DNA of 64,000 bases. Source: an alpha proteobacterium U9-1i. GTDB taxonomy: Bacteria > Pseudomonadota > Alphaproteobacteria > Caulobacterales > Aquidulcibacteraceae. Location: positions 558,001 to 622,000 of the forward strand of contig BBSY01000002.1 of NCBI GenBank assembly GCA_000974665.1, given 5' to 3'. The translations under genes and the position numbers were made by a program. The notes below the pieces were generated by a model. The model was not told the origin of the DNA. It did no database searches and saw only the letters and a program-made list of their open reading frames with translations. Of the stretch, positions 22,961 through 40,689 are shown one piece after another; within the stretch, counting starts at the first letter, position 1; every line of letters starts with the position of its first letter.

Positions 22961-23895
22961 GAGTATTCTCCCTCCTTGCAGTGGATGATTTCTTCGATGC
23001 GGCGGCCGTTTGACGTGCGGGCCATGAAGACGATGGTGTCGACCGCCGACGCGATGAGGCGTTCGGGGCGCGCGGCGCCGGTCTCGAGACAGAGATCTTC
23101 GAGCCGCAACAGCGCATCGGCGGCAGAATTAGCGTGAATGGTGAGAAGACCGCCGGGGTGGCCAGTATTCCAGGCCTTCAACACTTCAAGCGCTGCGCCA
23201 TCGCGCACTTCGCCAACGATGATGCGGTCGGGCCGAAGGCGCAGCGTCATCTGCACGAGATCACGCATCGAGACTTGCGGCTGCGTGCGTTTGGTCAGGA
23301 GCTGCACCACATCGGCGCCAGCGCATTGCAGTTCGGCGGTGTCTTCGAGAATGAGCAGGCGCGAGGCGGTGAAGGCGGGTTCTGCCAGCAGTGCGTTTAG
23401 GAGCGTGGTCTTGCCAGAGCCGGTGCCGCCAGCGACGACGATGTTGCGGCGCGCGCCAATGGCATCGCGCAATTCGCGCACTTGCCCCCCGCTGGCGATC
23501 CGGTCGCGCGCGTAATCATCGAGCGTGTAGATAAACTTTGGCCGCTTGCGGATCGCCAGCACCGGAGCGTTGACGATCGGGGAGATGAGCGCCTGCACAC
23601 GCGCGCCGGACCCAGGCAGGGTGGCGGCAAGATATGGTTGATCTTCCGTGACGGTTTCGAAGGCTTCAGCGGCCAAAAGCCGAATCGCGGCCTCCCGTTC
23701 GGCCACGGTCAAACGCGCATCCACGGTCTCAATGCCGCAGCCGACCCGATCCACGCGCATCTGCCCATCGGCGTTGATCAGCACTTCGACGACCGCGTCG
23801 TCAGCGAGGGCTGCGTGCAGCGCAGGGCCAAGTGCGCCGCGCAGCGACGCCAGCCGGCGTTCGGTGACCACGCGATCTTGCGGCGCCGCGTTCAT
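22957..23895 (-). CDS. trbB: Conjugal transfer ATPase TrbB (VirB11 family)
   Basis: A 312-residue hexameric traffic ATPase. Walker A GGTGSGKTTLLNALL is at residues 156-170, the Asp box/Walker B region LILEDTAELQC follows, then the secretion-NTPase signature LRPDRIIVGEVRDGAALE and the His box TGHPGGLLTIHANS. All are complete. It acts at the base of the mating pore together with TrbE and TraG. It overlaps the ribbon-helix-helix gene and trbC by 4 bp each. Confidence 0.96.
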   Translation of the reverse strand: MNAAPQDRVVTERRLASLRGALGPALHAALADDAVVEVLINADGQMRVDRVGCGIETVDARLTVAEREAAIRLLAAEAFETVTEDQPYLAATLPGSGARVQALISPIVNAPVLAIRKRPKFIYTLDDYARDRIASGGQVRELRDAIGARRNIVVAGGTGSGKTTLLNALLAEPAFTASRLLILEDTAELQCAGADVVQLLTKRTQPQVSMRDLVQMTLRLRPDRIIVGEVRDGAALEVLKAWNTGHPGGLLTIHANSAADALLRLEDLCLETGAARPERLIASAVDTIVFMARTSNGRRIEEIIHCKEGEYS

Positions 23896-24344
23896 GGGGC
23901 GCCCCCATTGACTGCGGCCTGCAGCGTTCGATCATCCTGTTGGCCGTGCGGCGCGTGCGCGAACAGGGACTGACCGGGCCCCATGCTCTCGGCTAACAAT
24001 TCCAGAAAAGCGTTGAAGCGGCGCTCGGCGACGGCGTTGGTGGCGTCGAGCGTTTCTTCCGGCGGCGCTGGCGTGTGTTCAAGCCAAACGCGAATGAAGA
24101 GGAGGAGGGTCTCCTTGACGATGCTGATCTCGCGCTCGCGGATGATCTCGCGCTTTTCGACGCGATCGAGCCGCATCTTCACCGTGTCCGCCACGGCTTC
24201 GTCCTTCTCGTCGAGCAAACTCCGGCGCAGCGCCATGGCCGCAGCGCGTGTGGTCGGGAGTCCGCGCGTCCTGGCGTCGAGATCGAGCGCCCGCGCTAGG
24301 TCGCTCTCCAGATAAATCGTGAGCTTCTTTTTGGCGGCGCTCAT
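23892..24344 (-). CDS. Ribbon-helix-helix (CopG-like) protein of the tra/trb operon
   Basis: A 150-residue protein. The N-terminal KKKLTIYLESDLARALDLDA is a short ribbon-helix-helix segment. A long charged helix with coiled-coil character (DRVEKREIIREREISIVKE) and a C-terminal region conserved in the same position of related trb clusters follow. It lies between traG and trbB with 4-bp overlaps on both sides. It probably binds DNA, as an operon regulator or as a transfer accessory protein. Confidence 0.85.
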   Translation of the reverse strand: MSAAKKKLTIYLESDLARALDLDARTRGLPTTRAAAMALRRSLLDEKDEAVADTVKMRLDRVEKREIIREREISIVKETLLLFIRVWLEHTPAPPEETLDATNAVAERRFNAFLELLAESMGPGQSLFAHAPHGQQDDRTLQAAVNGGAP

Positions 24345-26416
24345 GACGGTGCCTCCGAAGAATCGCAGCCGTCGCGCGGGCGCAACGCAAAGCGCGATGC
24401 AGGCGCTGTCGTTTGATCAGGCGCGGCAGGCGGCGGTGGAGGCAGAGGAGCCGGCGCTTCGCCGTGCACATCGTTGACAGCAGCTTCATGCGATGCGGTC
24501 TCCGCTGAGCTCGTTTCGAGTGCGGAGAGCAGGTCGGGTTGATGCGTTTCCGCAGGCGCGCGCGATCGCAGTGGCGCCTTCTGCGATACCGCCCGCTGGA
24601 TCGCGGCCTCTCGGGACGAAGCATTGACTGCAGGCTGCGGCGTGGGGCGCTCGGCGCGGCCTAAGGATTGGATGCCCATCCATGGCGACGTCAGCGTAGG
24701 GCGACGGCCTTCGTCCGGCGCGGGCAACAGCCGCGTTTTGAACACAGGCTCTTCATCGTAACGCAGCTTCTCAGCGCGCAAGGGTTTGGCCCCTGTGACG
24801 AAGACAAGTTCTTCGCGATCGCTCAGACGGCGGACCTCAGAGGGGAGAATGAGCGGCCGACGCTCTTCGCGATATGTGATGGCGCGATGATCGAGCCCGA
24901 ACAGCTGCCGCTTGCCGGACCAGGTTTCCTGCGGACGCATTTCAAAAATGTCGCCAGCGAGTTTGGAAATGGTGTCGGCGGTTTCGACGTCGGTTGCGGC
25001 AAAGCTGGTGACGATCTGACAATTATCCAGAATCGTATGATAGCGGCCGTAGGCTTGCGTCACTTGGTGCAAGGATTGGGTGACGAGATAGGCTTTGACG
25101 CCATATCCGGCCATCGCTCCCATCGATTGCTCGAACACATCGAGTTTGCCGAGTTGCGGGAATTCGTCGAGCAGCAGCAGCAATGACCGTGTCTTGCGCC
25201 GGCCGTCAGCCGCGTATTCCTGATGCTCCATCAGAATACGCAACACTGTGCCGAACACGAGACGAATAAGCGGCTTGACGCGCTTGGCGTCATTGGGCGG
25301 CCAGCAGAGATAGAGCGTGACTGGCTGATCCGCGCACATCAGATCGGAAATGCGGAAGGTCGAGGTTTGCGTGTTCTGCCGCACCAGCGGATCGGCAAAG
25401 AGACCGAGATAGCTTTCGGCGGTGGCCTTGATGCCGGCGCGTAGTTTCTCGTGATAGGCCGCATAGGAGACAGCGGCGCGCTTCACTTCCGGGTGTGTCT
25501 CAGGTTCGCCCGTGACGTCGCTCTTGCGATGGAGCGTTGCCTCCATCAGCTTCACGGTGTCGTCAAAGCGCGCCAGCAATTCGAACACGCGCGCCAGCGT
25601 TTTCGATCGTACTGGCTCGGCGTAGATGACATGGATGATGAGACCGGCGAGCACTTGCTTGGCGGCGCGGTCCCAGAATTCCTGGAAACGGCCATCGCCG
25701 TAAGGATCAGCGATCAACTCGACTAGGTTCTGGACATCGCGCACCTCCTGATCGCCCGGCCGGATCGTGTCCATGAGATTGAGCCGATCGGATATCGTCT
25801 CCGTCGGTGCGAAGCGGATGACAGGACCAAGCTTGGCGCGCCAGCCCGCTGTGCCGGGAAAAGAGACGCGCGCATCGCCTGAATGCAATTCGTTCTTGAG
25901 ATCGAGGACGAGGATCGAGTGCGGACTAGCAAGCAGTGTGGGGATGACGCTGCCGCGCGTCTTCCCTGAACGCGTACCGCCCGTCAGCAACAGGTGATGC
26001 GGGCCGTCATAAGCGAGGATCTCGCCGTCCAATTTGCCGATGACGATGCCGCCTTCGGCGAAGAGGCCGGCCTCGCGCGCATCCTTGGCGCTGCCCCAGC
26101 TCTTTACGCCAAAAGGACGCTGGTCGGGACGAAGCGGGCGAGAGGCAATGAGGAGGGTGAAAGCGCCGCTCAGCAGAGCCAGCATGAAAATGAGCTTCGG
26201 CATGGCGAAGGCGCGCGGATAGGCGCGCGACCAGCGGTTCGACCAATCGGCGATAGCGAACGGGGGGTAGAGCTGCGCGCCGAGGGGCGTGAGCCGGGGT
26301 CCAAGCGCTTGCTGATGGTTGAACCGAGCGGCGAGCATCTGCGTCGACCACGCGGCGCCGCCGAGCGCGATGAGCGCTGCCATGCATGCGGCAATGATCG
26401 GCCGATTGAATTGCAT
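24341..26416 (-). CDS. traG: Type IV coupling protein TraG (VirD4 family)
   Basis: A 691-residue coupling ATPase that links the relaxosome to the mating pore. Two N-terminal membrane helices (about 5-30 and 72-92) precede the nucleotide-binding domain. Walker A GGTRSGKTRGS is at residues 146-156 and Walker B LLLLLDEFPQLGKLD is at about 415-430. The conserved TQSLHQVTQAYG and CQIVTSFAATD segments follow. The C-terminal about 120 residues are Pro/Ala/Glu-rich and variable. It is the first gene of the operon; the relaxase usually found upstream is absent here. Confidence 0.96.
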   Translation of the reverse strand: MQFNRPIIAACMAALIALGGAAWSTQMLAARFNHQQALGPRLTPLGAQLYPPFAIADWSNRWSRAYPRAFAMPKLIFMLALLSGAFTLLIASRPLRPDQRPFGVKSWGSAKDAREAGLFAEGGIVIGKLDGEILAYDGPHHLLLTGGTRSGKTRGSVIPTLLASPHSILVLDLKNELHSGDARVSFPGTAGWRAKLGPVIRFAPTETISDRLNLMDTIRPGDQEVRDVQNLVELIADPYGDGRFQEFWDRAAKQVLAGLIIHVIYAEPVRSKTLARVFELLARFDDTVKLMEATLHRKSDVTGEPETHPEVKRAAVSYAAYHEKLRAGIKATAESYLGLFADPLVRQNTQTSTFRISDLMCADQPVTLYLCWPPNDAKRVKPLIRLVFGTVLRILMEHQEYAADGRRKTRSLLLLLDEFPQLGKLDVFEQSMGAMAGYGVKAYLVTQSLHQVTQAYGRYHTILDNCQIVTSFAATDVETADTISKLAGDIFEMRPQETWSGKRQLFGLDHRAITYREERRPLILPSEVRRLSDREELVFVTGAKPLRAEKLRYDEEPVFKTRLLPAPDEGRRPTLTSPWMGIQSLGRAERPTPQPAVNASSREAAIQRAVSQKAPLRSRAPAETHQPDLLSALETSSAETASHEAAVNDVHGEAPAPLPPPPPAAPDQTTAPASRFALRPRDGCDSSEAPS

Positions 26417-28346: not shown

Positions 28347-29276
28347 CTATGAGCCGAACACATTCCAGCCCGCCGCATGCGCCAGTCGCTCAAGCGCTAG
28401 CGTTCCCAATTGCGAATTGCCCTGCTGATTGAGACCCGGTGACCAAACGCAGAGCGAGGCTTTTCCCGGGACAATTGCAAGTATGCCACCACCGATGCCG
28501 CTCTTTCCAGGTAGACCGACGCGAAATGCAAAGTCACCTGACCCGTCGTAGTGCCCGCACGTCATCATCAATGCATTGATCCTGCGGGCTCGCTTCGCCG
28601 AGAGGATTTGGCTCCCAGAGGCCGGATTGACGCCGCCATGTGCGAGGAAAAGACCACTCCGCGCCAATTGCCGGCAGCTCATCGCTATCGCGCATTGATG
28701 CACATAAGTCCCAATGACGCGCTCGACCGAGTTGGTCAGATTTCCGTGCGCGGCCAGAAAATGGGCGAGGGACGCGTTGCGGTGGCTGAAACGTGCTTCG
28801 GAGTTCGCCACATTGTCATCGACGAAAATGGAGTCGTCCTCGCTCACCGCCCGCACGAACTGAAGAATTTCGCCGATTGCTTCGCGCGGTTCGCGCCGTC
28901 CCAAAACGATGTCAGTCACCACCAAGGCGCCGGCGTTGATGAAGGGATTGCGTGGTACGCCGCCTTCATGTTCGAGTTGGACGATCGAATTGAACGCTGA
29001 TCCAGACGGCTCGCGGCCCACGCGTTCCCATAGTTGATCACCTAACCGACCCAGAGAAAGCGCTAGCAGGAACACTTTCGAGATACTTTGTATCGAGAAC
29101 GGCTCCTCGGCGTTGCCCGCACTCCAAGTTTGGCCATTCAGATCTGCCACGGCGATCGCGAACTTCTTGGGATCCACGCGCGCTAGCTCTGGGATCGCGG
29201 AGGTAACGCGACCGCAATCCGGATAACTCGCCAGAGTCGAACAAAGATCATCCAGTTCGGTTTGAATGTCACGCAC
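28347..29276 (-). CDS. glsA: Glutaminase A
   Basis: A 309-residue serine-dependent beta-lactamase-like glutaminase converting glutamine to glutamate and ammonia. The catalytic SxxK is at S64-K67 (SIQSISKVF). Family segments [37 protein letters not shown] and [15 protein letters not shown] are all present, so it looks active. It lies 30 bp after folB in the same direction and so is part of the folate operon. This is an unusual neighbour; glutamate supply for folylpolyglutamate is one possible link. Confidence 0.95.
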
Positions 29277-29306
29277 GTTGCAAACCCTCTATGCGGCTTG
29301 CCTCCG

Positions 29307-29690
29307 CTACTTGCCGCTCTCTAGTTCATCGCGGCGCAGGTCAATCTCTACCGCAATTCCTTCGAGTGACAGCGCGAGGGGCGGGGCGCTCTTTGCCGCT
29401 GTGATCCTCACGCTCGAGAAAATAGGAAACTGGCGGATGAGATCCCGGGCCATGGCTTCTGCAAGCGCCTCCAAAGTGTGGAAGCGCTTGCCGGTAGCCA
29501 ATTGCTCGATCCGGGCGGCAACAATGGCGTAATCGACGGACGCCGAAAGGTCATCCTGCTCATGGGTCCCTCTCGCGACGAGGTCGGCGCGTACGTCAAA
29601 GCGAAACCGTTGTCCAAGGCACCGTTCCTCCTCGAACACGCCATGGTGTGCGTAGATTTCGAGAGCTTGAATGTGCAGAGCCGTGTTCAC
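29307..29690 (-). CDS. folB: Dihydroneopterin aldolase
   Basis: A 127-residue enzyme of the FolB/FolX tunnelling fold, cleaving dihydroneopterin to 6-hydroxymethyl-dihydropterin in folate synthesis. It has IQALEIYAHHGVFEEER (with the conserved Glu of the pterin site) and a late lysine segment (VRITAAKSAPPLA) containing the catalytic Lys. A FolX epimerase role cannot be excluded. The start overlaps the CADD-like gene stop by 4 bp. Confidence 0.9.
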   Translation of the reverse strand: MNTALHIQALEIYAHHGVFEEERCLGQRFRFDVRADLVARGTHEQDDLSASVDYAIVAARIEQLATGKRFHTLEALAEAMARDLIRQFPIFSSVRITAAKSAPPLALSLEGIAVEIDLRRDELESGK

Positions 29691-30367
29691 GCGGCGAGCG
29701 CACTATTTTCGAGCGCGCCGTCGAGAAAACCAAGGAGTGCGTTCGACAGTTCCAAAGCCGCCGAGACGGCTTCTTCGGCATCATCGTCAGTGAGCTGGTT
29801 CAGTAACGCGCGGCAGACGTCCGCATGTTCTACGTCTGCGCTGGCATGCACCGCAAAGAACCGCGTGGCCGTTTCGTCGCGAGCACCGTAAAACTCTTGA
29901 AGACCTTTGATCTTAGTCAGTGCGACGTCCGGCATCTGGCTCTCATAGGCATAGAGCGCGCCCAGCGCTGCGGGGTAGGATTGGCGACTTAGGCGTAAAA
30001 ACGTGTCTATGAGGTTCTTCGTCTGCGCGCGCGGGATCGTTGCGCGAACCTGAGCCTCTTCGGCGCCTATGCCTCTGGCAAAATCGAGCCAAAGCGCAGC
30101 GTGCGGTTTGTGTCCGTCGCTTAAGCCTTCTTCTTCGCTCAAATTCTCTGCAAGCATGCGTCGCCCGGCGCTGTTTGGACAGGAGCTGTGAGCAGCACTC
30201 ACCACACGGGGAAACGCCTCGACGTGCTGAAAGTATTGACAAGCGTAGTCAGAAAGATCTCCACGGCTCAGCGCTCCAATCTCCCACGCCCGGTAGAACG
30301 CATGATCCAACATCCGGCGCTTGATGATGACACTATCAAGGCGGGTCGAGAGGAAGTTCTGACTCAT
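29687..30367 (-). CDS. CADD-like putative para-aminobenzoate synthase (TenA/PqqC-type haem-oxygenase fold)
   Basis: A 226-residue helical protein closely resembling the Chlamydia CADD family (putative folate-metabolism proteins). Metal-ligand candidates E80, H86/H89, E142, H174, D178 and H181 are present, with the H-x3-D-x2-H array in VHASADVEHADV. K152 is also present, at the position reported for the lysine that donates the amino group in Chlamydia CADD; tyrosines Y25 and Y141 lie nearby. Chlamydial CADD makes pABA from its own side chains with a dinuclear metal and oxygen. Position between folD and folB supports a folate role. It has the good ribosome site AAGGAG and a 4-bp overlap with folB. 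Confidence 0.85.
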   Translation of the reverse strand: MSQNFLSTRLDSVIIKRRMLDHAFYRAWEIGALSRGDLSDYACQYFQHVEAFPRVVSAAHSSCPNSAGRRMLAENLSEEEGLSDGHKPHAALWLDFARGIGAEEAQVRATIPRAQTKNLIDTFLRLSRQSYPAALGALYAYESQMPDVALTKIKGLQEFYGARDETATRFFAVHASADVEHADVCRALLNQLTDDDAEEAVSAALELSNALLGFLDGALENSALAA

Positions 30368-30398
30368 GAAGAGTGTCTCCTTCGCAAGCTAAGCGGGT

Positions 30399-31271
30399 TC
30401 AGCGTGTCTTTGCAGTTGCCGCCGCGGTGGCGGCGGCGAGCGTGTTGTCCAACAGACAGGCGATAGTCATCGGCCCCACACCGCCGGGGACGGGCGTGAT
30501 GAACCCGGCGACGGCTTGCGCCTCATTGAAACAAACATCGCCGACGATTCTGCCGCTGCGGCGGTTGATGCCTACGTCGATGACAATGGCGCCTGGTTTA
30601 ATCCAATCGCCGCGCACCATTTCTGCGCGGCCGGCGGCGGCGATCAAAATATCTGCTGCTCTCGTGACGACCGGCAAATCGCAGGTTTTGGAATGAGCCA
30701 CGGTCACGGTGCAATCGGCGGAGAGAAGAAGGTGCGCCATCGGCTTGCCAACGATATTAGAGCGTCCAATTACAACCGCGTTCAGTCCCGCAAGATTGCT
30801 GCGCGCCTCGCGGATCAACAACATACAGCCCTTGGGTGTGCATGGTGTGAGAGCGGGCAGACCTCGCACCAGCAGCCCTGAATTGACGACGTGGAAGCCA
30901 TCAACATCCTTTGCTGGCGAGATGGCCGCCAATATCTCCGCTTCGTCCAAGTGTCCTGGCAGCGGCAATTGTACCAGGATGGCGTCCATCGCTGCGTCAT
31001 GATTGAGCGCTTCAATCAGGCCAAGCAGTTCTGCCTGTTCAACATCGCGTGCGAGGCGGTGCGTGCGCGAGAAGAAGCCTCTTTCGCGCGCCGTCGCTTC
31101 CTTGCGGCCGACGTAGGTTGCGCTCGCCGAGTCATCGCCCACCAGAATGACTGCCAAGCCAGGCGCGCGGCCCCATATGCGGCGGAAATCCGCAACGCGT
31201 GGCGCAATAGCGTCCAAGAGGCGCCTCGCACAGTCGAGACCATCAAGACGGCGAGCTGAAACTGGCTGCAT
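30399..31271 (-). CDS. folD: Methylenetetrahydrofolate dehydrogenase/cyclohydrolase FolD
   Basis: A 290-residue bifunctional enzyme interconverting 5,10-methylene-THF and 10-formyl-THF. The catalytic Y-x3-K is in TYVGRKEATA, then QLPLPGHLDE, PCTPKGCMLL, the NADP site VVIGRSNIVGKPMAHLLL and PVPGGVGPMT, all complete. It heads a minus-strand operon with the CADD-like gene, folB and glsA. Its predicted promoter (31372-31400) overlaps an inverted repeat shared with the sarcosine oxidase control region, so it may be a dedicated cargo copy that serves sarcosine C1 oxidation. Confidence 0.96.
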   Translation of the reverse strand: MQPVSARRLDGLDCARRLLDAIAPRVADFRRIWGRAPGLAVILVGDDSASATYVGRKEATARERGFFSRTHRLARDVEQAELLGLIEALNHDAAMDAILVQLPLPGHLDEAEILAAISPAKDVDGFHVVNSGLLVRGLPALTPCTPKGCMLLIREARSNLAGLNAVVIGRSNIVGKPMAHLLLSADCTVTVAHSKTCDLPVVTRAADILIAAAGRAEMVRGDWIKPGAIVIDVGINRRSGRIVGDVCFNEAQAVAGFITPVPGGVGPMTIACLLDNTLAAATAAATAKTR

Positions 31272-31371
31272 GTCGCGGGCAACGTTTCGTAGCTGAAGTC
31301 AATATTGTGAGGCGGTTTCTGGCGTCCCGCGCCTGCTCAGGCCGGGGCGTCCGAAACCAGCATCAGCGTCT

Positions 31372-31400
31372 TCCATAGGGAAGCCTATTGTTTTCGGCAA
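31372..31400 (-). promoter_or_regulatory. Predicted folD operon promoter
   Basis: On the minus strand TTGCCG (31400-31395) and TATGGA (31377-31372) are separated by 17 nt, about 100 bp upstream of folD. The -10 box and spacer overlap the inverted repeat at 31375-31388, which would let a repressor bound there block RNA polymerase. Confidence 0.55.
31375..31388. promoter_or_regulatory. Putative TetR operator, copy 1 (folD side)
   Basis: ATAGG-GAAG-CCTAT, perfect 5-bp arms with a 4-nt spacer. The same repeat occurs at 32146-32159 and, with one changed base, at 32125-32138. The three copies flank the tetR gene on both sides. Confidence 0.7.
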
Positions 31401-31425
31401 GCGTGATTTTCCTGCGGGGCTTCGA

Positions 31426-31444
31426 CGCGGCGCTTAGCGCCGCG
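31426..31444. repeat. 8-bp hairpin covering the tetR stop codon
   Basis: CGCGGCGC-TTA-GCGCCGCG is a perfect inverted repeat whose loop is the stop codon of tetR. A TTTTT run follows on the plus strand only, so it would terminate plus-strand rather than tetR transcription. Confidence 0.5.
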
Positions 31445-32045
31445 ATTTTTGACGCGGTCTGGAGGCTGGCGGGTCGCCCTTAAGGGCGCGAAAATAGGCG
31501 TCGGATAGCTCAAGTCGCTCGGCGCGGCTCTCGGCGATGCGCATCGCGTAATAGCCCACCTGGTGATAGTAGGCCACGCGCGCGCGTACCGCCGCATCTT
31601 CGCGCGAGTAACCCCAGCCTTCGTACATTTCCTGAACCAGCGCGATTCGCGTGACGTCAACGCGGCGCACGATTTTATCAGCTTTTATCGAGGTTCGCGC
31701 CCAATCTCTCACGGCCGCATCGTAGGCCGGGTCAAAATCGAGTTCGAGTACCCAGACCCTTTGCAGCGCTCGCAATTGGGCATCCGGGTCGCCGGCATTG
31801 GCGCGGATTGCGCCTAGATAGCCAATCGAATTCGTGCTCTCCCAGTCCGCCAGCAAATCGCCGAGCAATTCCTGGCGGTTTTTGAAATGCCAGTAGAAAC
31901 TGCCTGTGGTGACCCCGAGCGTCTCTGCAAGATGCTCGACCTTAACCCGACCTTCACCGCCCTTGATCAGGGCGTCGCGCGCTGCGGCGATCCAATCGGC
32001 ACGGGCGAGGCGGGGAGATTTGGCCAGGGCGGCGCGGGTGCTCAT
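31434..32045 (-). CDS. TetR/AcrR family transcriptional regulator
   Basis: A 203-residue repressor-type regulator. The N-terminal HTH (VKVEHLAETLGVTTGSFYWHFKNRQELL) is typical TetR; the C-terminal ligand domain is rich in Trp, Tyr and Arg. It is divergent from soxB, with two ATAGG-N4-CCTAT-type repeats in between and a third upstream of folD. The likely role is autoregulation and control of both the sarcosine oxidase and folate operons, with a pathway metabolite such as sarcosine or a folate derivative as effector. The effector is a guess. Confidence 0.9.
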   Translation of the reverse strand: MSTRAALAKSPRLARADWIAAARDALIKGGEGRVKVEHLAETLGVTTGSFYWHFKNRQELLGDLLADWESTNSIGYLGAIRANAGDPDAQLRALQRVWVLELDFDPAYDAAVRDWARTSIKADKIVRRVDVTRIALVQEMYEGWGYSREDAAVRARVAYYHQVGYYAMRIAESRAERLELSDAYFRALKGDPPASRPRQKSRR

Positions 32046-32124
32046 GGACGACTAATTGCCCCTGTTTCGATCGAAATTGCAACTTCTCGGCTTCAACAGC
32101 GTGGAAACACTCTAGCCAAACGCC

Positions 32125-32138
32125 GTAGGTAAGCCTAT
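32125..32138. promoter_or_regulatory. Putative TetR operator, copy 2 (tetR/soxB gap)
   Basis: GTAGG-TAAG-CCTAT, differing from copies 1 and 3 by one base in the left arm. Its centre is 21 bp, two helical turns, from that of copy 3, so two dimers could bind the same DNA face. Confidence 0.65.
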
Positions 32139-32145
32139 TGAGACC

Positions 32146-32159
32146 ATAGGGAAGCCTAT
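32146..32159. promoter_or_regulatory. Putative TetR operator, copy 3 (tetR/soxB gap)
   Basis: ATAGG-GAAG-CCTAT, identical to copy 1 over 14 bp (16 bp identical if CATAGG... is counted from the preceding C and one following base is ignored). It ends 9 bp before the soxB start codon. Confidence 0.7.
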
Positions 32160-32168
32160 GGATCGGCT

Positions 32169-33422
32169 GTGACACGTTACTCCGCTTTGCGCGTGTTTTG
32201 GGAAGGCGTCCGCGGGCAAACCGGGTGGTCGCAAGCCTGGCGTTCGCCAGAACCGAAGCCTCGCTATGACGTCGTCATTGTCGGCGGCGGCGGGCATGGG
32301 TTGGCCACAGCTTATTATCTGGCGAAAAACCACGGCGTTACGAACGTGGCGGTGCTTGAGCGCGGTTGGATTGGGGGAGGCAACACCGGGCGCAACACCA
32401 CGATAATTCGTTCGGATTACTATTATCCGTCGAGCATCGCGCTTTTTGAGCTCTCCTTGAAGCTCTATGAAAAGTTGTCGCTCGAGCTCAACTACAATGT
32501 GATGTTTTCTCAGCGCGGGATGGTCGTGGCGGGCCATTCTCGTCACGACATGGAAAACATGGAGCGGCTAGTCCGGGCGATGGCGCTTCATGGTGTCGAC
32601 GTGCGCATGCTCGACCGCGAAGCAATAGCGAGACGCGTGCCCCCGCTCGATTGCTCGCCGAACGCGCGCTTTCCGGTTTGGGGCGGCTACGTGCAAGAAC
32701 GGGCGGGACCTGCCCGTCATGATGCGGTCGCCTGGGGTTTCGCGCGTGGGGCCGACCAGCTGGGCGTGGACATCATTCAGAATTGCGAGGTTCGCGGTTT
32801 TCGAAAAAACGAGACCGGGCGTGTGATCGCTGTGGAGACGTCGCTTGGCGTTATTCAGGCGGACAAAATCGCACTCGCTGTTGCTGGGCACTCCAGCGTG
32901 GTTGCGCGTGAGGCAGGATTAGAATTGCCTGTTACCTCTTATGCGCTGCAGGCGTTCGTAAGCGAGCCGGTCAAGCCTGCGCTCGACGTTGTGTCGCGGT
33001 CGCTGGCGACGGGCACCTACATTTCGCAGTCGGACAAAGGCGGTCTTGTCTTCGGCGGGGCGCTCGATCTCTATCCGTCATATGCGCAGCGCGGAAATTT
33101 GCCGGTGGGCGCTCGCGTGATCGCAGCGATTGCCGATCAATATCCAAGTTTCTCGCGGGTCCGACTGCTTAGGCAATGGGCTGGGATCGTCGATGTGGTC
33201 CACGATTCAAGTCCAATTCTCGGGGAGACGCCAGTGCCTGGGCTCTACCTCAATTGCGGCTGGGGCACAGGCGGTTTCAAAGCCATCCCTGCGGGAGGCG
33301 TCCTGCTTGCGCATCACTTGGCGACAGATCGGTCACATCCGATCGCGCAGCCTTTTTCACTCGACCGTTTCCGCACTGGCGCGCTCCTCGATGAAGCCGC
33401 CGGCGCTGGCATCGCGCATTAG
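32169..33422 (+). CDS. soxB: Sarcosine oxidase subunit beta (heterotetrameric)
   Basis: A 417-residue flavoprotein subunit that oxidises sarcosine. It opens TRYSALRVFWEGVRGQ as in other SoxB proteins, followed by the FAD/ADP motif VVIVGGGGHGLATAYYLA (about 35-52). H184 in PARHDAVAW matches the conserved His that covalently binds FMN in characterised enzymes. The start is GTG 32169, directly after the operator, with no good ribosome site, so its translation may be weak or the transcript nearly leaderless. It is first gene of soxBDAG-purU. Confidence 0.95.
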   Translation: MTRYSALRVFWEGVRGQTGWSQAWRSPEPKPRYDVVIVGGGGHGLATAYYLAKNHGVTNVAVLERGWIGGGNTGRNTTIIRSDYYYPSSIALFELSLKLYEKLSLELNYNVMFSQRGMVVAGHSRHDMENMERLVRAMALHGVDVRMLDREAIARRVPPLDCSPNARFPVWGGYVQERAGPARHDAVAWGFARGADQLGVDIIQNCEVRGFRKNETGRVIAVETSLGVIQADKIALAVAGHSSVVAREAGLELPVTSYALQAFVSEPVKPALDVVSRSLATGTYISQSDKGGLVFGGALDLYPSYAQRGNLPVGARVIAAIADQYPSFSRVRLLRQWAGIVDVVHDSSPILGETPVPGLYLNCGWGTGGFKAIPAGGVLLAHHLATDRSHPIAQPFSLDRFRTGALLDEAAGAGIAH

Positions 33423-33433
33423 AGGCGCCGCTC

Positions 33434-33727
33434 ATGCTATTGCTCCATTGCCCTTGGTGTGGTCCCCGCGATGAAGTCGAATTCCGATGCGGTGGACAAA
33501 GCCACATCACACGTCCGGAACCGTTCGACCAAGTGAGTGACGCCCAGTGGGCGCACTACTTGTTTTTTCGCATCAACCCCAAAGGTCTCCACTTTGAACG
33601 GTGGTTGCATGAGGCGGGTTGCCTCCAATGGTTCAACGTCGCACGCGACACCCGAACCCATAAAATCCACGCCGTCTACAAAATGACCGATCCGAAGCCC
33701 GTGATCGCCGACGAGGTGGCGCGATGA
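33434..33727 (+). CDS. soxD: Sarcosine oxidase subunit delta
   Basis: A 97-residue small subunit with a zinc-site opening (LLLHCPWCGPRDEVEF) and the usual YLFFRINPKGLHFERWLHEAGC and WFNVARDT segments. It stabilises the alpha-beta-gamma-delta complex. It lies 11 bp after soxB and overlaps soxA by 4 bp, the standard soxBDAG order. Confidence 0.95.
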   Translation: MLLLHCPWCGPRDEVEFRCGGQSHITRPEPFDQVSDAQWAHYLFFRINPKGLHFERWLHEAGCLQWFNVARDTRTHKIHAVYKMTDPKPVIADEVAR

Positions 33728-36669
33728 CCGGTGTGCGGTTGCCAAAGGGCGGGCGGCTCATCGATCGCCAACGTCCTTTGTCCTTCTCCTTCGAGGGTCA
33801 ACAGCTTCAGGGTTATGTGGGTGACACGCTCGCGTCGGCCCTGCTGGCCAGCGGTAAGAGCGTTGTCGGCAGATCGTTCAAATATCACCGTCCGCGCGGG
33901 ATATTCGCAGCCGGCGTTGAGGAGCCCAACGCGTTGATGCAAGTCGGCGAGGGTGGACGCGCTGACGCGAATCTCGTCGCAACCCAGATCGCGCTCCATG
34001 ATGGATTGAGCGCGCGGGCGGTCAATTGTTGGCCGAGCGCTGCGTTCGACCTGGGTGCAATCAACAACGCCTTGGCGCGCTTTTTTCCCGCGGGCTTTTA
34101 TTACAAGACGTTTCTTTGGCCGAACTGGCGCGTCTACGAGCCGGTCATTCGCCGCGCTGCAGGCTTGGGCAAGGCGTCCGAGCAGCCGGATGCGGACGCT
34201 TATGAAACACGATTTGCACATTGCGACGTGCTTGTTGTCGGCGGCGGGCCGGCAGGGATCTCGGCAGCGCTCACCGCGCAGAGTTCTGGCGCCCGGGTCA
34301 TGCTCGTGGAGCAAGACGCAAGGCTCGGTGGAAGTTTGCGATGGCGCGGCGGCGAGATTGACGATGCGCCGTCCGAGACTTGGTTGAGTCACGTAGAAGC
34401 GACGCTTCAAGCCGGTTCGCGCACGAAACTTCTTAAAAGGACGATGGCGGTCGGCTATTTCGACCACAACAGCGTCGCGCTCCTGCAGAGCTTCGATGTC
34501 CAAGCAGGTCAATGTGCCGCTTCAGCTCGCATGCGCCTTTGGCAGGTGCGCGCCAAACGAGTCATTCTCGCTAGCGGGGCAATCGAACGTCCGCTTGTGT
34601 TTCCAGGCAATGACCGGCCAGGCGTCATGCTAGCCTCCGCGGTCGCACGCTATATCGGCGACTATGGCGTGCGATGCGGTGAAGCCGCGCTCTTTCTCGC
34701 AAACAACGATAGCGCCTATGCGAGCGCTCAAGCCTATCGGATGGCGGGCGGAAACATAAAAGCGATTGTCGACACAAGAGCCGATCCGGGCGTCGAAGCC
34801 GCGCGCTTAGCGGCAGAGGGCGTTGAGGTCATCGCTGGCGGCACGGTTGTTATGACGAAGGGCGCCAAGAGAATTAGCGCCGCGCGCGTTAGGACAGCAT
34901 CCGGGGCCGAGCTGGAACTGCGTATCGATCTGTTGGCGGTCTCTGGCGGATGGACGCCGACTATCCATTTGCATTGCCAATCTGGCGGGCTGCCGAAATG
35001 GGACGACCGCTTCGCTTGTCTGGTCCCTGGACCGTCGGTGCAAAACGAAACATCGGTCGGCGCGAGCGCTGGAGTGTTTTCGCTTGGTGAAGCGATGAAG
35101 CAAGGCGCTCGAGCAGGCGCGGACGCGGCGCAAGCGGCGGGATATAACTGCGATTCAGCTACGCCCGCGCCTCAAGCACGATCAACCATCTCCTTCGCGA
35201 TCGAACCGGTTTGGATGATGGAGGGCAAAGGCAAAGCGTTCGTCGATTTGCAGAACGATGTGACCGCCGGCGATATCGAATTGGCGCACCGCGAAAACTT
35301 CGTCTCGGTCGAGCATCTGAAGCGGTACACAACGCTCGGAATGGGCACGGATCAAGGCAAGACTTCGAATGTGAATGCGCTTGCGCTGATGGGGCAAATG
35401 CGAGGAAGCCCGCCCGCGCAGTCGGGTGTCACGCGCTATCGTTTCCCTTTTGCGCCGCTGCCCATTGGCGCGTTAAACGGTTTTGATCGGAGCGAAACGC
35501 TTCGGCCATCGCGTCGCTTGCCGCTGCATGATTGGCATACCGGCGCAGGCGCGGTGTTCGAAGAATATGGAAGCTGGATGCGACCGGCGCGTTACCCGCG
35601 TGGCGGCGAGACTCGTTTCGACGCTGAGCAACGCGAGGCGCGCACGGTTCGTGAAGCGGTCGGCATTTTCGACGGCTCGCCCCTTGGAAAGATCGAGGTC
35701 TTAGGCCCAGACGCAGGACGCTTTCTCGACCGTATCTATGCCAATCGCATGTCTGACTTGGCTGTCGGCAGATGCCGCTATGGCCTCATGTTAAACGAGC
35801 TCGGCGTCGTCATCGACGATGGCGTCGCGAGCCGCCTCGATGAAAATCGGTTCTTGGTCGGCACAACGAGCGCCGGCGCCGCGCGCATAGCGGCGTGGCT
35901 CGAGGAATGGTTGCAATGCGAATGGACAAGTTTGAACGTGCTCGTTGCGCCAGTGACCCATTGCTGGGGTGTCGTGACCGTCACGGGACCGAAAGCCCGC
36001 GAAACGATGGCGCGCGTTGGCGTGAACTTTGACATCGGGCCAGAGGGGTTCAAGCATCTGAGTTGGCGCGAAGGCGAGGTGGGAGGAGTATCCGCCCGCG
36101 TATTTCGCGTGAGCTATACGGGCGAAGTATCCTATGAAATCAACGTAGCGCCTTCGCGCATAAGCGAAGTATGGCGCTCATGTTTCGAAGCCGGCAAAGA
36201 GTTAGGCATAGCGCCGGTGGGAATAGACGCCTGGGATGTGCTGCGCACCGAGCGCGGCTTTTTGCACGTTGGCTCTGACACTGACGGCACAACCTCTGCT
36301 CTGGATGCGGGCTGGGGGCGGGTCCTGAAGCGCAAAGATGACTTCGTCGGCCGCCGCTCCCTAATGCGCCCGGATGACCAACGTGCAAACAGATTGAACT
36401 TCGTCGGTATCGAACCTGTCAGTCCTGACGCACCGATCAGAGTTGGCCTTCCCGTGATCGCCAAGGCCGCCGCGAAACGCTCCGATGGATATATCACATC
36501 GGCATGTTTTAGCCCGACGCTGGGTCGTTACGTCGGCCTCGGCATGATTGAGGACGGCCGCGCGCGCATCGGCGAAACCATCGCGCTCGCCGCCGATGGC
36601 GCTCAAATCATCGCCAAAATCACCGTCCCCGGCGCGTTCGACCCAAAGGGAGAGAGGGTCCATGGCTGA
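33724..36669 (+). CDS. soxA: Sarcosine oxidase subunit alpha
   Basis: A 981-residue subunit. The N-terminal 2Fe-2S-like fold without the cluster (LQGYVGDTLASALLASGKSV) is followed by the NAD/FAD domain (VLVVGGGPAGISAALTAQ at about 172-189). The C-terminal half (about 600-981) is an aminomethyltransferase (GcvT-like) domain that binds tetrahydrofolate and captures the methyl group of sarcosine as 5,10-methylene-THF. It has normal length and no obvious damage. It overlaps soxG by 8 bp. Confidence 0.96.
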   Translation: MTGVRLPKGGRLIDRQRPLSFSFEGQQLQGYVGDTLASALLASGKSVVGRSFKYHRPRGIFAAGVEEPNALMQVGEGGRADANLVATQIALHDGLSARAVNCWPSAAFDLGAINNALARFFPAGFYYKTFLWPNWRVYEPVIRRAAGLGKASEQPDADAYETRFAHCDVLVVGGGPAGISAALTAQSSGARVMLVEQDARLGGSLRWRGGEIDDAPSETWLSHVEATLQAGSRTKLLKRTMAVGYFDHNSVALLQSFDVQAGQCAASARMRLWQVRAKRVILASGAIERPLVFPGNDRPGVMLASAVARYIGDYGVRCGEAALFLANNDSAYASAQAYRMAGGNIKAIVDTRADPGVEAARLAAEGVEVIAGGTVVMTKGAKRISAARVRTASGAELELRIDLLAVSGGWTPTIHLHCQSGGLPKWDDRFACLVPGPSVQNETSVGASAGVFSLGEAMKQGARAGADAAQAAGYNCDSATPAPQARSTISFAIEPVWMMEGKGKAFVDLQNDVTAGDIELAHRENFVSVEHLKRYTTLGMGTDQGKTSNVNALALMGQMRGSPPAQSGVTRYRFPFAPLPIGALNGFDRSETLRPSRRLPLHDWHTGAGAVFEEYGSWMRPARYPRGGETRFDAEQREARTVREAVGIFDGSPLGKIEVLGPDAGRFLDRIYANRMSDLAVGRCRYGLMLNELGVVIDDGVASRLDENRFLVGTTSAGAARIAAWLEEWLQCEWTSLNVLVAPVTHCWGVVTVTGPKARETMARVGVNFDIGPEGFKHLSWREGEVGGVSARVFRVSYTGEVSYEINVAPSRISEVWRSCFEAGKELGIAPVGIDAWDVLRTERGFLHVGSDTDGTTSALDAGWGRVLKRKDDFVGRRSLMRPDDQRANRLNFVGIEPVSPDAPIRVGLPVIAKAAAKRSDGYITSACFSPTLGRYVGLGMIEDGRARIGETIALAADGAQIIAKITVPGAFDPKGERVHG

Positions 36670-37213
36670 TGCTGCTGTCGTTCGCCGTTTCTTGGGCGAA
36701 GGCCTTTCGATTGAAGAGCAACTTGTCAGCGGTGCAATCGTGCGTCTGCGCAAACCGGACGCGGCGTTGCTTGGCGGCATTGGTGCGGCGCTAACAGTGC
36801 CACTTCCACAGAAACCCAACAGCCTTGAACGAGAAGGCGGACCCCAAGCATGCTGGCTTGCCCCAGGCGAATGGGCCGTGTTCGGCGCTAAATTTGAAGA
36901 CGTACAGACCCAAGTAGCGCGCGTATGCGCAGGCGCCGTCACGCATCACGTTGCTGACATTGGCGAGGCCTGGCGTTGTTGGCGTGTCAGCGGTGAGGCT
37001 GCTGAGCCAATCCTGGCTAATGGGTGTCCACTCGATCTGGAGGGCGTGCAGGGGGCAAAAGGCTGCGCCCGCACGCTCTTGGGGCAGACCAACGTTCTGC
37101 TCGTGTGGACGTCTGACGGCTGGACGATCTATGCCGAGCGGGCTTTGGCGCAATTTATATGGGCTTGGTTTTCCCGCGCCGGGCGGGCGTGGAATCTTTG
37201 CGAGGCGGCCTAA
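36662..37213 (+). CDS. soxG: Sarcosine oxidase subunit gamma
   Basis: A 183-residue subunit with a GcvT-like fold, with LAPGEWAVFG and DIGEAWRCWRVSGEAAEPILANGCPLDL conserved. I chose ATG 36662, which overlaps the soxA stop; the longer upstream frame is inside soxA. SoxG completes the heterotetramer. Two bases separate it from the purU start region, indicating tight coupling. Confidence 0.92.
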   Translation: MADAAVVRRFLGEGLSIEEQLVSGAIVRLRKPDAALLGGIGAALTVPLPQKPNSLEREGGPQACWLAPGEWAVFGAKFEDVQTQVARVCAGAVTHHVADIGEAWRCWRVSGEAAEPILANGCPLDLEGVQGAKGCARTLLGQTNVLLVWTSDGWTIYAERALAQFIWAWFSRAGRAWNLCEAA

Positions 37214-37215
37214 TC

Positions 37216-38076
37216 ATGCGATCGAGAGAGCACTACGTCCTGCTGTTGAGATGCCCTGACGTACGCGGCGTCGTGGCTGCCGTTGCGAGTTATCTCGCGG
37301 AGAATAACGCCAACATAATCGAATCGAACCAATTCAATGATTCGGTTGGAAACCAGTTCTATATGCGCGTTAGCTTCCAAGCCGATGGCGAGATGCCAAG
37401 CCTTCAGGATCTTGACCGAGGTTTTGCGAAGGTAGCTCAACCTTATGCGATGACCTGGGAGTTTCACGACGCGCGGATTAAGCCGCGCGTTCTCATCGCC
37501 GTGTCGAAGATACCTCATTGCCTCAGCGATCTGTTGAGCCGTTGGCGCTCTGGCTTGTTGGCGATCGATGTCCCCGCCGTTGTCTCCAATCATGACGACA
37601 TGCGCTCCTTTGTGGAGTGGCACGGCATTGACTATCACCACTTACCGGTCACATCGGACACAAAGCGCGAGCAAGAGGCGAGGCTGGCGACTCTTGTTGA
37701 CGAGATGAATATCGATGTCGTCGTCCTTGCGCGGTACATGCAGGTGCTCTCGCGTGATCTTTGCGGCAAGCTGTCGGGCAAATGCATCAACATCCACCAT
37801 TCATTTTTGCCTAGCTTCAAAGGGGCGGGACCCTACACACAAGCCCATCAACGCGGCGTGAAATTGATCGGCGCTACCGCCCATTATGTGACGACCGATT
37901 TGGACGAGGGACCAATCATCGAACAGGATGTTGAACGTGTCAGCCATGCGCATACGCCCTCGGACTTGGTGCTGATTGGCCGCGACATCGAAAGCCGTGT
38001 GCTGGCCCGTGCCGTCAAATGGCATGTCGAGCGCCGCGTGATTCTAAACGGCAATAAGACGATCGTGTTTCCCTAA
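37216..38076 (+). CDS. purU: Formyltetrahydrofolate deformylase
   Basis: A 286-residue enzyme hydrolysing 10-formyl-THF to formate and THF. An N-terminal ACT-type domain (REHYVLLLRCPDVRGVVAAVA, with NANIIESNQF) precedes the formyl-transferase fold with VLARYMQVLSR and the catalytic region NIHHSFLPSFKGAGPY. I chose ATG 37216 directly after soxG. With FolD it closes the C1 route that starts at sarcosine: methylene-THF to formyl-THF to formate, recycling THF for SoxA. Confidence 0.95.
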   Translation: MRSREHYVLLLRCPDVRGVVAAVASYLAENNANIIESNQFNDSVGNQFYMRVSFQADGEMPSLQDLDRGFAKVAQPYAMTWEFHDARIKPRVLIAVSKIPHCLSDLLSRWRSGLLAIDVPAVVSNHDDMRSFVEWHGIDYHHLPVTSDTKREQEARLATLVDEMNIDVVVLARYMQVLSRDLCGKLSGKCINIHHSFLPSFKGAGPYTQAHQRGVKLIGATAHYVTTDLDEGPIIEQDVERVSHAHTPSDLVLIGRDIESRVLARAVKWHVERRVILNGNKTIVFP

Positions 38077-38108
38077 GCCAGATCGTCAAGCTTTGAGGGA
38101 GAAGAGCA

Positions 38109-39518
38109 ATGTCCGGCTGGTCGGAGCGCCGCACTCGTCCTGGCGTGCTCGCTGGGCTGCGTGACCAGTTGCGGGACGTGCTCGGTGCGCGCGTCTTGGA
38201 CTCAGAGGCGGTGCGCGATCAACACAGCCGCGACGAAGCGTTTCACCAAGCGCTGCCAGACCTCGTCGCATTTCCACAAACCGCCGAAGAAATCGCCAGC
38301 ATATTGCGCGCGTGCAAGGCTTATGAATGCCCCGTCACGCCCTGGGGCGCTGGCACGTCGCTGGAAGGCAATGCGTTGGCGTCGCAGGGCGGGCTATGCC
38401 TCAGCCTGGCGCGCATGGATCGTATTCTCTCAGTCGACTCGGAAGATATGCTTGTCGTCGTGGAGGCGGGTGTTAGGCGCCTACAACTCGATGGCGAACT
38501 CAAAGGAACGGGGTTATTCTTTCCCATTGATCCGGGCGCCGACGCCACGCTTGGCGGAATGGCTGCAACGCGGGCGTCCGGTACGACAGCCGTGAAGTAC
38601 GGCACGATGCGTGAGAATGTCCTGAGCTGCACGGTCGTTTTGGCCGATGGCCGCATCGTCCGCACAAGGAGCCGAGCGCCAAAATCTGCGGCCGGCTACG
38701 ATCTCACGGGCCTGTTCGTTGGATCTGAAGGCACGCTAGGCATTATTTCAGATTTGACCTTGCGTTTGCGTCCCGTCCCGGAATGCGTGGCGACGCTGGT
38801 GTGTGGCTTTGATGATCTTGCCCAGGCTGTCGGCTGCGTCGTCGACACCATGCAACTGGGGCTTCCGGTCTTGCGCATCGAATTCATGGACGCCGCGATG
38901 GCTATTGCTATCAACGCGTTCGCCAAACTCGCGCTTCCTGAAACGGCTACGCTTCTGGTGGAGCTTTCCGGAGGGCCAAGCGAAGTTAAGGAAACGCAGG
39001 CTGTCTTCGCCGCTGTTATGGCCGAGCGCGGCGGCAACCTGATCGGGACGGAGACCACAGCGGAAGGCCGCAGTGCATTATGGAAAGGCCGCCATAACGC
39101 CCTTTACGCGAGCCGGGCGCAACGGCCGGGCGGCAAAGTCCTGATCACCGATGTCTGCGTGCCGATTTCACAGCTCACGCAATGCCTTGTGGAAACCAGA
39201 GCTGACCTCAACAGGTCATCGTTGCCAGCAACAATTGCGGGCCATGTCGGTGATGGCAACTTCCATGCCTTTATTTGCGTAGATCCAGACAATGCTGCGG
39301 AAATTGAAGAAGCGGAGGCGCTCCATTTCCGTATGGCGGAGAGGGCAATTCGTTGCGGCGGCACCTGCACAGGCGAACATGGCATCGGGCTCGGCAAGAA
39401 ACGTTTATTGGAGCTTGAACTCGGCGCCGCGACGCCTCTGTTAGCGGACATCAAGCGGGCGTTGGATCCAAGCGGTATTCTCAATCCAGATAAAGTGTTC
39501 GATATGCCTCTGCGTTGA
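38109..39518 (+). CDS. FAD-linked 2-hydroxyacid oxidase/dehydrogenase, GlcD/DLD family
   Basis: A 469-residue flavoprotein of the vanillyl-alcohol-oxidase fold. FAD-binding segments PVTPWGAGTSLEGNALA, FPIDPGADATLGGMAATRASG and VGSEGTLGIISDLTLRL are typical. The C-terminal IAGHVGDGNFHAF and TCTGEHGIGLGKKRL carry the catalytic His and Arg/Glu region of D-lactate and glycolate dehydrogenases. Likely substrates are D-lactate, glycolate or another 2-hydroxyacid. Located 32 bp after purU with the good ribosome site GAGGGAGAAG, it is probably last in the operon. Its role beside sarcosine oxidation is open. Confidence 0.9.
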   Translation: MSGWSERRTRPGVLAGLRDQLRDVLGARVLDSEAVRDQHSRDEAFHQALPDLVAFPQTAEEIASILRACKAYECPVTPWGAGTSLEGNALASQGGLCLSLARMDRILSVDSEDMLVVVEAGVRRLQLDGELKGTGLFFPIDPGADATLGGMAATRASGTTAVKYGTMRENVLSCTVVLADGRIVRTRSRAPKSAAGYDLTGLFVGSEGTLGIISDLTLRLRPVPECVATLVCGFDDLAQAVGCVVDTMQLGLPVLRIEFMDAAMAIAINAFAKLALPETATLLVELSGGPSEVKETQAVFAAVMAERGGNLIGTETTAEGRSALWKGRHNALYASRAQRPGGKVLITDVCVPISQLTQCLVETRADLNRSSLPATIAGHVGDGNFHAFICVDPDNAAEIEEAEALHFRMAERAIRCGGTCTGEHGIGLGKKRLLELELGAATPLLADIKRALDPSGILNPDKVFDMPLR

Positions 39519-39537
39519 CACCGCGCGGGCGCTGGTC

Positions 39538-40689
39538 TCACGTGACGATGCGCGCTGTTTGATAGCCCGCCAATTCCAGTCCATCGCGCGTGATAGTGCC
39601 TGCGAGCTTCTGAGATTTCATGGCCGTGTCCATGTAGGAAAGCACCGCCAAACCTTCCTCGGACGCCAAAGACAGCGGCGCAACGACGCCCTCGGGCGTG
39701 AGTTGACAGGGCAAGAAGCCGATTTCTGCAAAGCCTCGCGCATCGCCGCGCGCCCACGCGACAAGCGTCATACGGCTGTCTTTGTGAAGAGGAAGCAGCG
39801 GCCAGCCCTCGCGGGGTCCCATCCTGTAGGAAGCGTCCGCCCCACCCTCTGCGTAGAAATCCTGAAGTGCTGCTTCTGGTATCGTCGTGCGAATATCGGC
39901 GACCAAATGCCCGAGCCCATAAAGAACAGGCTTGCCTTTGTACCATTCCATGCCGCGAAGGCAGTGATGGTGATGTCCAACGACGAGATCGGCGCCATGA
40001 TCGATGCAAAAGCGTGCCGTGTGTTTTTCGTGGTCGGTCAGGTGAAAAGGCCGGCCGAAATCGCCCCAGTGAAAGCTGGCGACCACGAGGTCAGCGACGC
40101 CACGCGCGCGTTCGATATCAGAGCGAAGTTTAGCGAAATCGTCTTCATCCGGCACGCTGGTCAAACGAGGCGCAGTCCCCGGCAAGTAATAACCGGGAAA
40201 TTGTTCGCGCCAGAAATTGTAGGAGCGCACCGGCGCTATGCCGGGGCTTGCCTCGCCGGCTTCGTAGCCAAACGGGAAGACGCTGGCATATCCGAGAAAC
40301 GCGATGCGAAGGCCTTGTGCGTTGATAAGAGCCGGCGCGCGCGCCTCCGCGTCTGACGCGCCGGCGCCGCAGGTCTGAACCCCCGCGGCGCGGAGCTTAT
40401 CGCGCGTTTCGAGCATCGCCGCCGCGCCGAAATCCATCATATGGTTGGTGGCCATCGCGACCACCTTGAACCCAGCCTTGGCGACAGCCGAGAGATTGTG
40501 CGCAGCAGAGCCGACAACGAGAGGGGCGCCGAGCGGCGGACGTGGAATGTTGGAGTAGGCGCATTCGAGATTTGCGAACATGATGTCGGGCGCGTGCAAA
40601 ACGCCGTCCAGTTCGGCGAACACCTCGTCGGGATTGGCGCGGTCGATCAGAATATCCCCGGCCAAGCCAATGAGCACATGATCCGCCAT
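39538..40689 (-). CDS. CapA-family metallophosphoesterase-like protein
   Basis: A 383-residue protein with PGA_cap/CapA features: GLAGDILIDR at the start, FANLECAYSN, ATNHMMDFG, FHWGDFGRPFHLTDHEKHTARF and GADLVVGHHHHCLRGM. These His and Asp residues would form a binuclear metal site. The family takes part in poly-gamma-glutamate biology or acts on unknown phosphate or amide substrates. There is no signal peptide. It is the last gene of the hydrolase operon and convergent with the GlcD-like gene. Neighbourhood suggests a catabolic hydrolase rather than capsule synthesis, since capB and capC are absent. Confidence 0.85.
   Translation of the reverse strand: MADHVLIGLAGDILIDRANPDEVFAELDGVLHAPDIMFANLECAYSNIPRPPLGAPLVVGSAAHNLSAVAKAGFKVVAMATNHMMDFGAAAMLETRDKLRAAGVQTCGAGASDAEARAPALINAQGLRIAFLGYASVFPFGYEAGEASPGIAPVRSYNFWREQFPGYYLPGTAPRLTSVPDEDDFAKLRSDIERARGVADLVVASFHWGDFGRPFHLTDHEKHTARFCIDHGADLVVGHHHHCLRGMEWYKGKPVLYGLGHLVADIRTTIPEAALQDFYAEGGADASYRMGPREGWPLLPLHKDSRMTLVAWARGDARGFAEIGFLPCQLTPEGVVAPLSLASEEGLAVLSYMDTAMKSQKLAGTITRDGLELAGYQTARIVT

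Follow-up and report, generated by a model that had tools for sequence, protein, structure and literature searches.

The 64,000-nucleotide stretch of U9-1i DNA analysed here, hereafter the window, carries a tetR gene that is divergent from a soxB-soxD-soxA-soxG-purU-FAD oxidase unit. Behind tetR, on the minus strand, lies a second unit, folD-CADD-folB-glutaminase, whose successive gaps measure 31, -4 and 30 bp. The genes and the predicted operators are given below, with family scores set against their cut-offs.

28347..29276, minus strand: glutaminase, closing the folD unit (NF002133, 461 bits, cut-off 368)
29307..29690, minus strand: folB, dihydroneopterin aldolase (TIGR00525, 86 bits, cut-off 72)
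29687..30367, minus strand: CADD-type protein of the 4-aminobenzoate synthase family (TIGR04305, 242.7 bits, cut-off 200)
30399..31271, minus strand: folD, second genomic copy (NF010785, 401 bits, cut-off 396)
31373..31390, no strand: predicted operator 1, CCATAGGGAAGCCTATTG, in the gap between the tetR 3' end and folD, with the folD start 101 bp away
31434..32045, minus strand: tetR, TetR-family repressor of 203 aa (Pfam TetR_N, 6e-10; recognition helix T46-T47-G48-S-F-Y-W)
32123..32140, no strand: predicted operator 2, CCGTAGGTAAGCCTATTG, 28 bp from soxB and 77 bp from tetR
32144..32161, no strand: predicted operator 3, CCATAGGGAAGCCTATGG, a perfect palindrome with the soxB start codon 7 bp on
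32169..33422, plus strand: soxB, heterotetrameric sarcosine oxidase beta subunit (TIGR01373, 646 bits, cut-off 529)
33434..33727, plus strand: soxD, an ORF between soxB and soxA named without a family scan; homologues in relatives adjoin soxB
33724..36669, plus strand: soxA, with a GCV_T folate-binding domain by Pfam (TIGR01372, 1213 bits, cut-off 1164)
36656..37213, plus strand: soxG-like, start set by eye (TIGR01375, 60 bits, under the cut-off of 144)
37159..38076, plus strand: purU, formyl-THF deformylase (TIGR00655, 346 bits, cut-off 286)
38109..39518, plus strand: GlcD-like FAD-linked oxidase (Pfam; GlcD under the NCBIfam cut-off), ending the sox unit

Judged by eye, the true purU start is probably near 37216. 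No glyA was present among the genes read at 28347-43690. Convergent with the sox unit, the minus-strand interval 39538-43690 encodes a capsule-synthesis-type protein, an amidohydrolase and a gamma-glutamyltranspeptidase (Pfam), and it holds no operator. Directly to the left of the cluster, the minus-strand interval 19883-26416 carries type IV secretion/conjugation genes, including a TrbE/VirB4-type protein and a coupling protein (Pfam) and a VirB11-type ATPase (by eye); these genes could possibly belong to an integrated conjugative element. A tRNA-Gly gene is located at 10360-10434.

The original prediction described an ATAGG-N4-CCTAT repeat confined to the two gaps flanking tetR, and the description held. 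Exact copies are present at 31375-31388 and 32146-32159, a copy with one mismatch is present at 32125-32138, and the window holds just these three matches at one mismatch or fewer. Shuffling the window 100 times gave a mean of 0.15 matches and a maximum of 2, never 3. The full repeat unit is wider than first noted, being an 18-bp palindrome (CCATAGG-N4-CCTATGG), while the spacing of copies 2 and 3, predicted as two helical turns, was measured at 21 bp. Across the 4.05-Mb genome CATAGG-N4-CCTAT is found exactly twice, both times at the tetR locus. The looser CRTAGR-N4-YCTAYK matches five places, three at the tetR locus and the others at 1252369 and 202033, and the reversed control pattern matches three times per strand in the same genome; thus it is the clustering of the sites that stands out and not their total count. 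In all ten genomes searched, loose-pattern totals exceeded the reversed control by at most one match per strand. The place at 1252369 falls within a 115-aa ORF, YCII-type by eye. The genome gave no support for a wider regulon, there being five loose-pattern places in all, with 1252369 inside an ORF. The proposal that copy 1 overlies the -10 box of a folD promoter proved weak, as no sigma-70 promoter passed the scan; by eye, a weak TTGCCG-N17-TATGGA (7/12) spans operator 1. From their conservation and their match to helix residues, both detailed below, it is well supported that the palindromes are the predicted operators of the TetR subfamily to which the window protein belongs.

The TetR protein has the N-terminal helix-turn-helix domain of its family (TetR_N, PF00440, 39.2 bits against a cut-off of 24). 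Its AlphaFold2 model (pLDDT 88) is all-helical with ten helices, of which the third, or recognition, helix comprises residues 47-51. The best PDB match to the model was a TetR/AcrR regulator (TM 0.69, 13% identity), with the first ten matches ranging over TM 0.38-0.71, and the NCBIfam cut-offs for MtrR and AcrR were both missed (33.8 against 280 bits and 27.5 against 271 bits, respectively). Family membership leads us to expect that the protein would bind palindromic operators as a dimer and would be released by a ligand. Related proteins were sought in 61 genomes and, by peptide patterns, in 84,980 species genomes, from which the best 80 loci were taken. Of the 60 other genomes sampled, one yielded an orthologue of more than 60% identity, and the TetR of G023, a genome of the same genus, is 64% identical to that of the window.

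Eleven relatives (L028, L029, L031, L033, L034, L100, L036, L059, L044, L052 and L039) carry sox genes of greater than 35% identity within 6 kb in the fetched TetR locus. In ten of these a palindrome with 0-3 mismatches in 14 positions to the class consensus precedes either soxB or a TRAP-transporter-soxBDA unit; the eleventh, L039, has a different helix and a different motif. The genome of L028 (G023) has CCATAGAGCACTCTATGG 14 bp upstream of soxB, and L036 and L059 both carry CCATACAGTGCTGTATTG in the soxB/tetR gap. A CCATACA-type site also precedes soxB in L052, where it is exact, and in L044, where it has one mismatch. In L029, L031, L033, L034 and L100 the unit opens with the TRAP gene dctP, and 47-75 bp separate the upstream site from the point where the dctP match begins; the dctP in the genome of L034 is only 29% identical to the query. 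The site likewise precedes dctP in three members of the same TetR clade whose loci contain no sox genes (L030, L032 and L035). The dctP sites were first found with a G-type pattern; when the 18-mers in 400 bp of upstream DNA were ranked with the inner bases ignored, the site came first in six of eight genomes, tied for first in L127 and was second, tied, in L128. Two paralogous dctP genes in the genome of L032 have no site (at least 3 mismatches). In five TRAP-type genomes out of eight the loose pattern matches nowhere else in 3.7-5.0 Mb; it matches 2, 5 and 6 places in the remaining three, with 4-13 reversed-control matches per strand across the eight. Inspection by eye showed paired copies, tandem or half-tandem, at a spacing of about 22 bp in 5/8 TRAP-type promoters (L125-L128 and L131), and L041 has tandem copies 20 bp apart. 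These results make the sarcosine-oxidase operon a well supported predicted target of the window TetR. Downstream of tetR in L031, Pfam identifies an Lrp-type regulator, a Cys/Met-metabolism PLP enzyme and an OsmC protein; similar ORFs follow tetR by eye in L032, L033 and L100. Such neighbours suggest a substrate other than plain sarcosine in these Rhodobacterales-type relatives.

Comparison of operators across the wider subfamily revealed that the inner bases of the half-site track a single residue in the recognition helix (T/S-x-G-S-F-Y-W), equivalent to Thr47 of the window protein and to Arg44 of MtrR. In 870,687 bp of TetR loci the frame CCATA-N8-TATGG was counted 38 times (including one window site and four sites from the G023 locus, which is in the set twice) versus 0-2 times for any alternative spacing between 2 and 15. 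Among 123 distinct proteins, the 40 with an exact palindrome within 500 bp were counted and the 83 without one were left out. Counted together with a later set of loci, lysine proteins have C at base 6 with a base other than A at position 7 (33/33), whereas arginine proteins have CA at bases 6-7 (16/16), a contrast with a Fisher value of 3e-13, uncorrected for kinship. In a tree built with the residue masked, well-supported branches gave three independent pairs (five on all branches) and all three agreed; with just three pairs a sign test cannot reach 0.05. The later set, fetched after the rule had been formed, comprised 29 loci, 13 of them with exact sites; two of these repeated proteins already counted, and the 11 that were new (9 Lys and 2 Arg) all obeyed the rule. 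Proteins with Thr, Pro or Ser at this position have G at base 6 in 12 of 12 cases, namely the window and G023 (Thr), the eight TRAP-type genomes (Pro, from the G-type pattern search) and L072 and L081 (Ser, one mismatch). The last two belong to another clade, in which they branch beside Lys-type relatives; one of these relatives, L046, carries a C-type site that departs by one mismatch. A change from a basic to a small residue with a change from C to G therefore seems, on the sequences compared, to have arisen at least twice. Four of nine loci looked at (L037, L042, L053 and L055) contain no CCATA-type operator.

The crystal structures of MtrR give a reason why this residue predicts the operator class. 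The structural report describes Arg44 as hydrogen-bonding the G of the YpG step, which is complementary to bases 6-7, and Thr43, Gly45, Tyr48 and Trp49 as likewise contacting bases (PMC8053128). Thr46, Thr47, Gly48, Tyr51 and Trp52 of the window TetR have the same spacing as these base contacts. The U9-1i genome also encodes an Arg-type TetR paralogue (L135, C2:1340000-1347000), with CCATACACAAGTGTATGG near a gene that appears by eye to encode a TonB-type receptor. The form of the paralogue's site, CCATACAC-N2-GTGTATGG, recurs across the genus beside related genes. Because this paralogue has an Arg-type operator in the same cell, the switch of recognition residue may keep the two repressors apart.

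The folate side of the locus is less widely shared. The genome of the window has two copies of folD versus one in each of seven congeners tested, while folB and CADD were each found there in one copy. The best PDB matches of the CADD protein, 1rcw (8e-44) and 8va9 (2e-43), are named CT610 and 4-aminobenzoate synthase; the protein is assigned by homology to the 4-aminobenzoate synthase family and is predicted to make 4-aminobenzoate. A CADD match occurs in 21 of 30 genomes of the genus, own genome included, one of the matches being weak. Nine other congener CADD loci were read and have no folD, folB or operator beside CADD. In a survey of 40 CADD loci, two of which are the window itself, with flanks of at most 1.5 kb, no operator at two mismatches or fewer and no folD, folB or glsA beside CADD was found at the other 38. 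No relative among the loci fetched has the folD-tetR-soxB gene order. In one same-genus genome, a short FAD-dependent oxidoreductase fragment lies by the second operator (L136:14166-14594); it matches positions 1-94 of 353 of Pfam DAO and looks truncated.

A parallel to the folD arrangement came from two Burkholderia-group loci, L039 and L040, in which ATGGACA-N4-TGTAC precedes folD and also a transporter gene, an ABC substrate-binding protein by eye (L039:5550, L039:8328, L040:5515, L040:8405 and L040:8512). All five matches have a spacing of 4, with none at the other spacings from 1 to 8 and 11 in 1.47 Mb of loci, for a motif that was derived by inspecting those same two loci. The TetR proteins of L039 and L040 have a Ser-Arg-Ser helix and belong to the same broad clade as the window TetR, and the L039 locus also holds soxA. 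As a motif for the Ser-Arg-Ser class, GKACA-N4-TGTMC was rejected; it occurs in just 2 of 17 further SRS/SRT loci and so provides no class rule. Thus the expectation that relatives would carry such a repeat was borne out at the sox genes (10/11) and not at folD, where site 1 was seen in one species only. With that one species and the Burkholderia-group parallel as its evidence, folD as a target of the window TetR is plausible but unproven.

From the operators, gene content, sox conservation and helix-operator match, all read in sequence, we infer binding, repression, an inducer and an effect on folD. We consider it likely that the window TetR would act as a local repressor of the sarcosine operon, of tetR and of the folate unit, to be released by an inducer. 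A TetR dimer would bind CCATAGG-N4-CCTATGG. Since operators 2 and 3 lie at soxB and in the gap shared by soxB and tetR, this tandem pair is proposed to block transcription in both directions, of the soxBDAG-purU-FAD oxidase operon and of tetR itself, while operator 1 would block folD-CADD-folB-glutaminase. TetR would be released by the inducer, for which sarcosine or some other N-methyl compound is the likeliest candidate, and the THF-dependent sarcosine oxidase would then rise along with the second FolD, PurU and the folate-building enzymes. The outcome would be that the load of 5,10-methylene-THF is drained and THF is supplied. As originally predicted, a single regulator would join sarcosine and THF genes; the sarcosine half of that proposal is well supported, while the folD half draws on one species and the Burkholderia-group parallel.

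Several other explanations bear on parts of this scheme. The three repeats could be palindromes produced by chance or sites of another protein, which would fit with their status as predicted sites and with a loose pattern that is about as frequent genome-wide as the reversed control; the shuffles, the clustering, the conservation at sox genes and the matching of helix to operator make this reading very improbable. A more serious one concerns operator 1, which might serve as an auxiliary looping site across tetR or be a relic of another target, leaving folD, CADD and folB as housekeeping genes. G023 speaks for such a role: it likewise has operators on either side of tetR, separated by 735 bp (operators 1 and 3 of the window are 771 bp apart), and lacks folD there. 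The DNA behind tetR cannot be aligned between G023 and the window, yet the site is kept, and site 1 may accordingly have another role. The single copies of folB and CADD point the same way, since tight repression would cost the cell its folate supply, barring leaky expression or a contribution from other promoters or pathways. The helical phase of the two spacings differs, however (73.4 versus 70.0 turns at 10.5 bp per turn), operator 1 is just 101 bp upstream of folD, TetR proteins of the same broad clade have sites before folD in L039 and L040, and the window folD is an extra copy. On balance we regard it as unlikely that operator 1 is not for folD.

Somewhat less unlikely, though still doubtful in our judgement, is that the operators and the repressor are real and the substrate is not sarcosine, with another N-methylated compound being imported through a TRAP or TonB system. 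A TRAP transporter heads the unit in the Rhodobacterales-type relatives (Pfam identifies DctP in L030), the Cys/Met-metabolism PLP enzyme and OsmC protein lie downstream in L031 with similar ORFs by eye in others, and TonB receptor genes, again by eye, adjoin several family members. Against this, soxB and soxA exceed curated sarcosine-oxidase cut-offs, and purU and folD suit a THF-linked demethylation.

A repressor of the sarcosine operon that also governs the folate unit thus remains the reading we favour, and a single switch is proposed to couple folate supply with sarcosine breakdown. A target motif is now proposed for a repressor group for which no description was found, and since its operators would be predictable from one residue, regulons could be read straight from genomes by a rule that is itself testable. 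We advance only tentatively, at slightly less than an even chance, the broader combination in which a code at the Thr47 position (Arg for CA, Lys for C followed by a base other than A, and Thr, Pro or Ser for G at base 6) operates across this TetR subfamily in Proteobacteria, Cyanobacteria and Myxococcota, the basic-to-small switch in the window lineage separated a sarcosine repressor from its Arg-type paralogue, and the switched operator captured, in this species, a folate operon that carries the one folB and the one CADD found in the genome, making cofactor synthesis follow C1 catabolism.

In a search of mainly open-access literature, no TetR regulator of heterotetrameric sarcosine oxidase together with folate genes was found. 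The Arthrobacter dimethylglycine/sarcosine cluster carries folD and purU. The pairing of folD and purU beside methylamine genes is likewise known (PMC7574528). The description of the locus as an undescribed C1 regulon stands for the regulator and its gene set, for which no account was found, and not for soxBDAG with purU, which has already been published; glyA-soxBDAG-purU operons with THF recycling are described from Corynebacterium and Colwellia (PMC3691474). The window shares with these the placement of soxBDAG and purU in one unit. That source proposes XRE-family, GbdR-like or GGDEF regulators for Colwellia, whereas the window has a TetR with mapped predicted operators (PMC3691474). The folD-CADD-folB unit on the far side of tetR is likewise a feature of the window when set against the Colwellia and Corynebacterium operons as described there. 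The sox locus of Bacillus thuringiensis resembles the window in that its sarcosine oxidase genes are regulated and arranged as two opposing units, and differs in being under Sigma54 and SoxR instead of a TetR (PMC4941409). AmtR, a TetR-family repressor of Corynebacterium glutamicum, is reported to repress creatine and creatinine genes leading to sarcosine (PMC8864220). As portrayed in that report, AmtR is a global nitrogen regulator with many targets, whereas the window TetR appears local and sox-linked. Chlamydial CADD/CT610 and 4-aminobenzoate synthase (1rcw, 8va9) are homologous to the window CADD over residues 3-220 of 226; the window protein differs from chlamydial CADD in being encoded in a folD-folB unit behind a predicted TetR operator.

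Papers on correlation or co-evolution of residues and bases, as located here, treat the IclR and MerR families, and none on the TetR group of the window was found in the literature search. PheR (PMC13273656), considered as a precedent, is described as an IclR-family protein and was set aside. A close comparison is MtrR of Neisseria gonorrhoeae, for which the operator consensus is given as MCRTRCR-N4-YGYAYGK (PMC8053128). The half-site frame, the N4 spacing and the Thr-x-Gly-x-x-Tyr-Trp spacing are common to MtrR and the window TetR, and operator 3 fits the MtrR half-site frame at all positions but base 6. At that base Arg44 of MtrR goes with C, while Thr47 of the window TetR goes with G. In kind the window protein is ordinary, a local TetR repressor; the unexpectedly clean residue-to-base rule is the most general result of this comparison.
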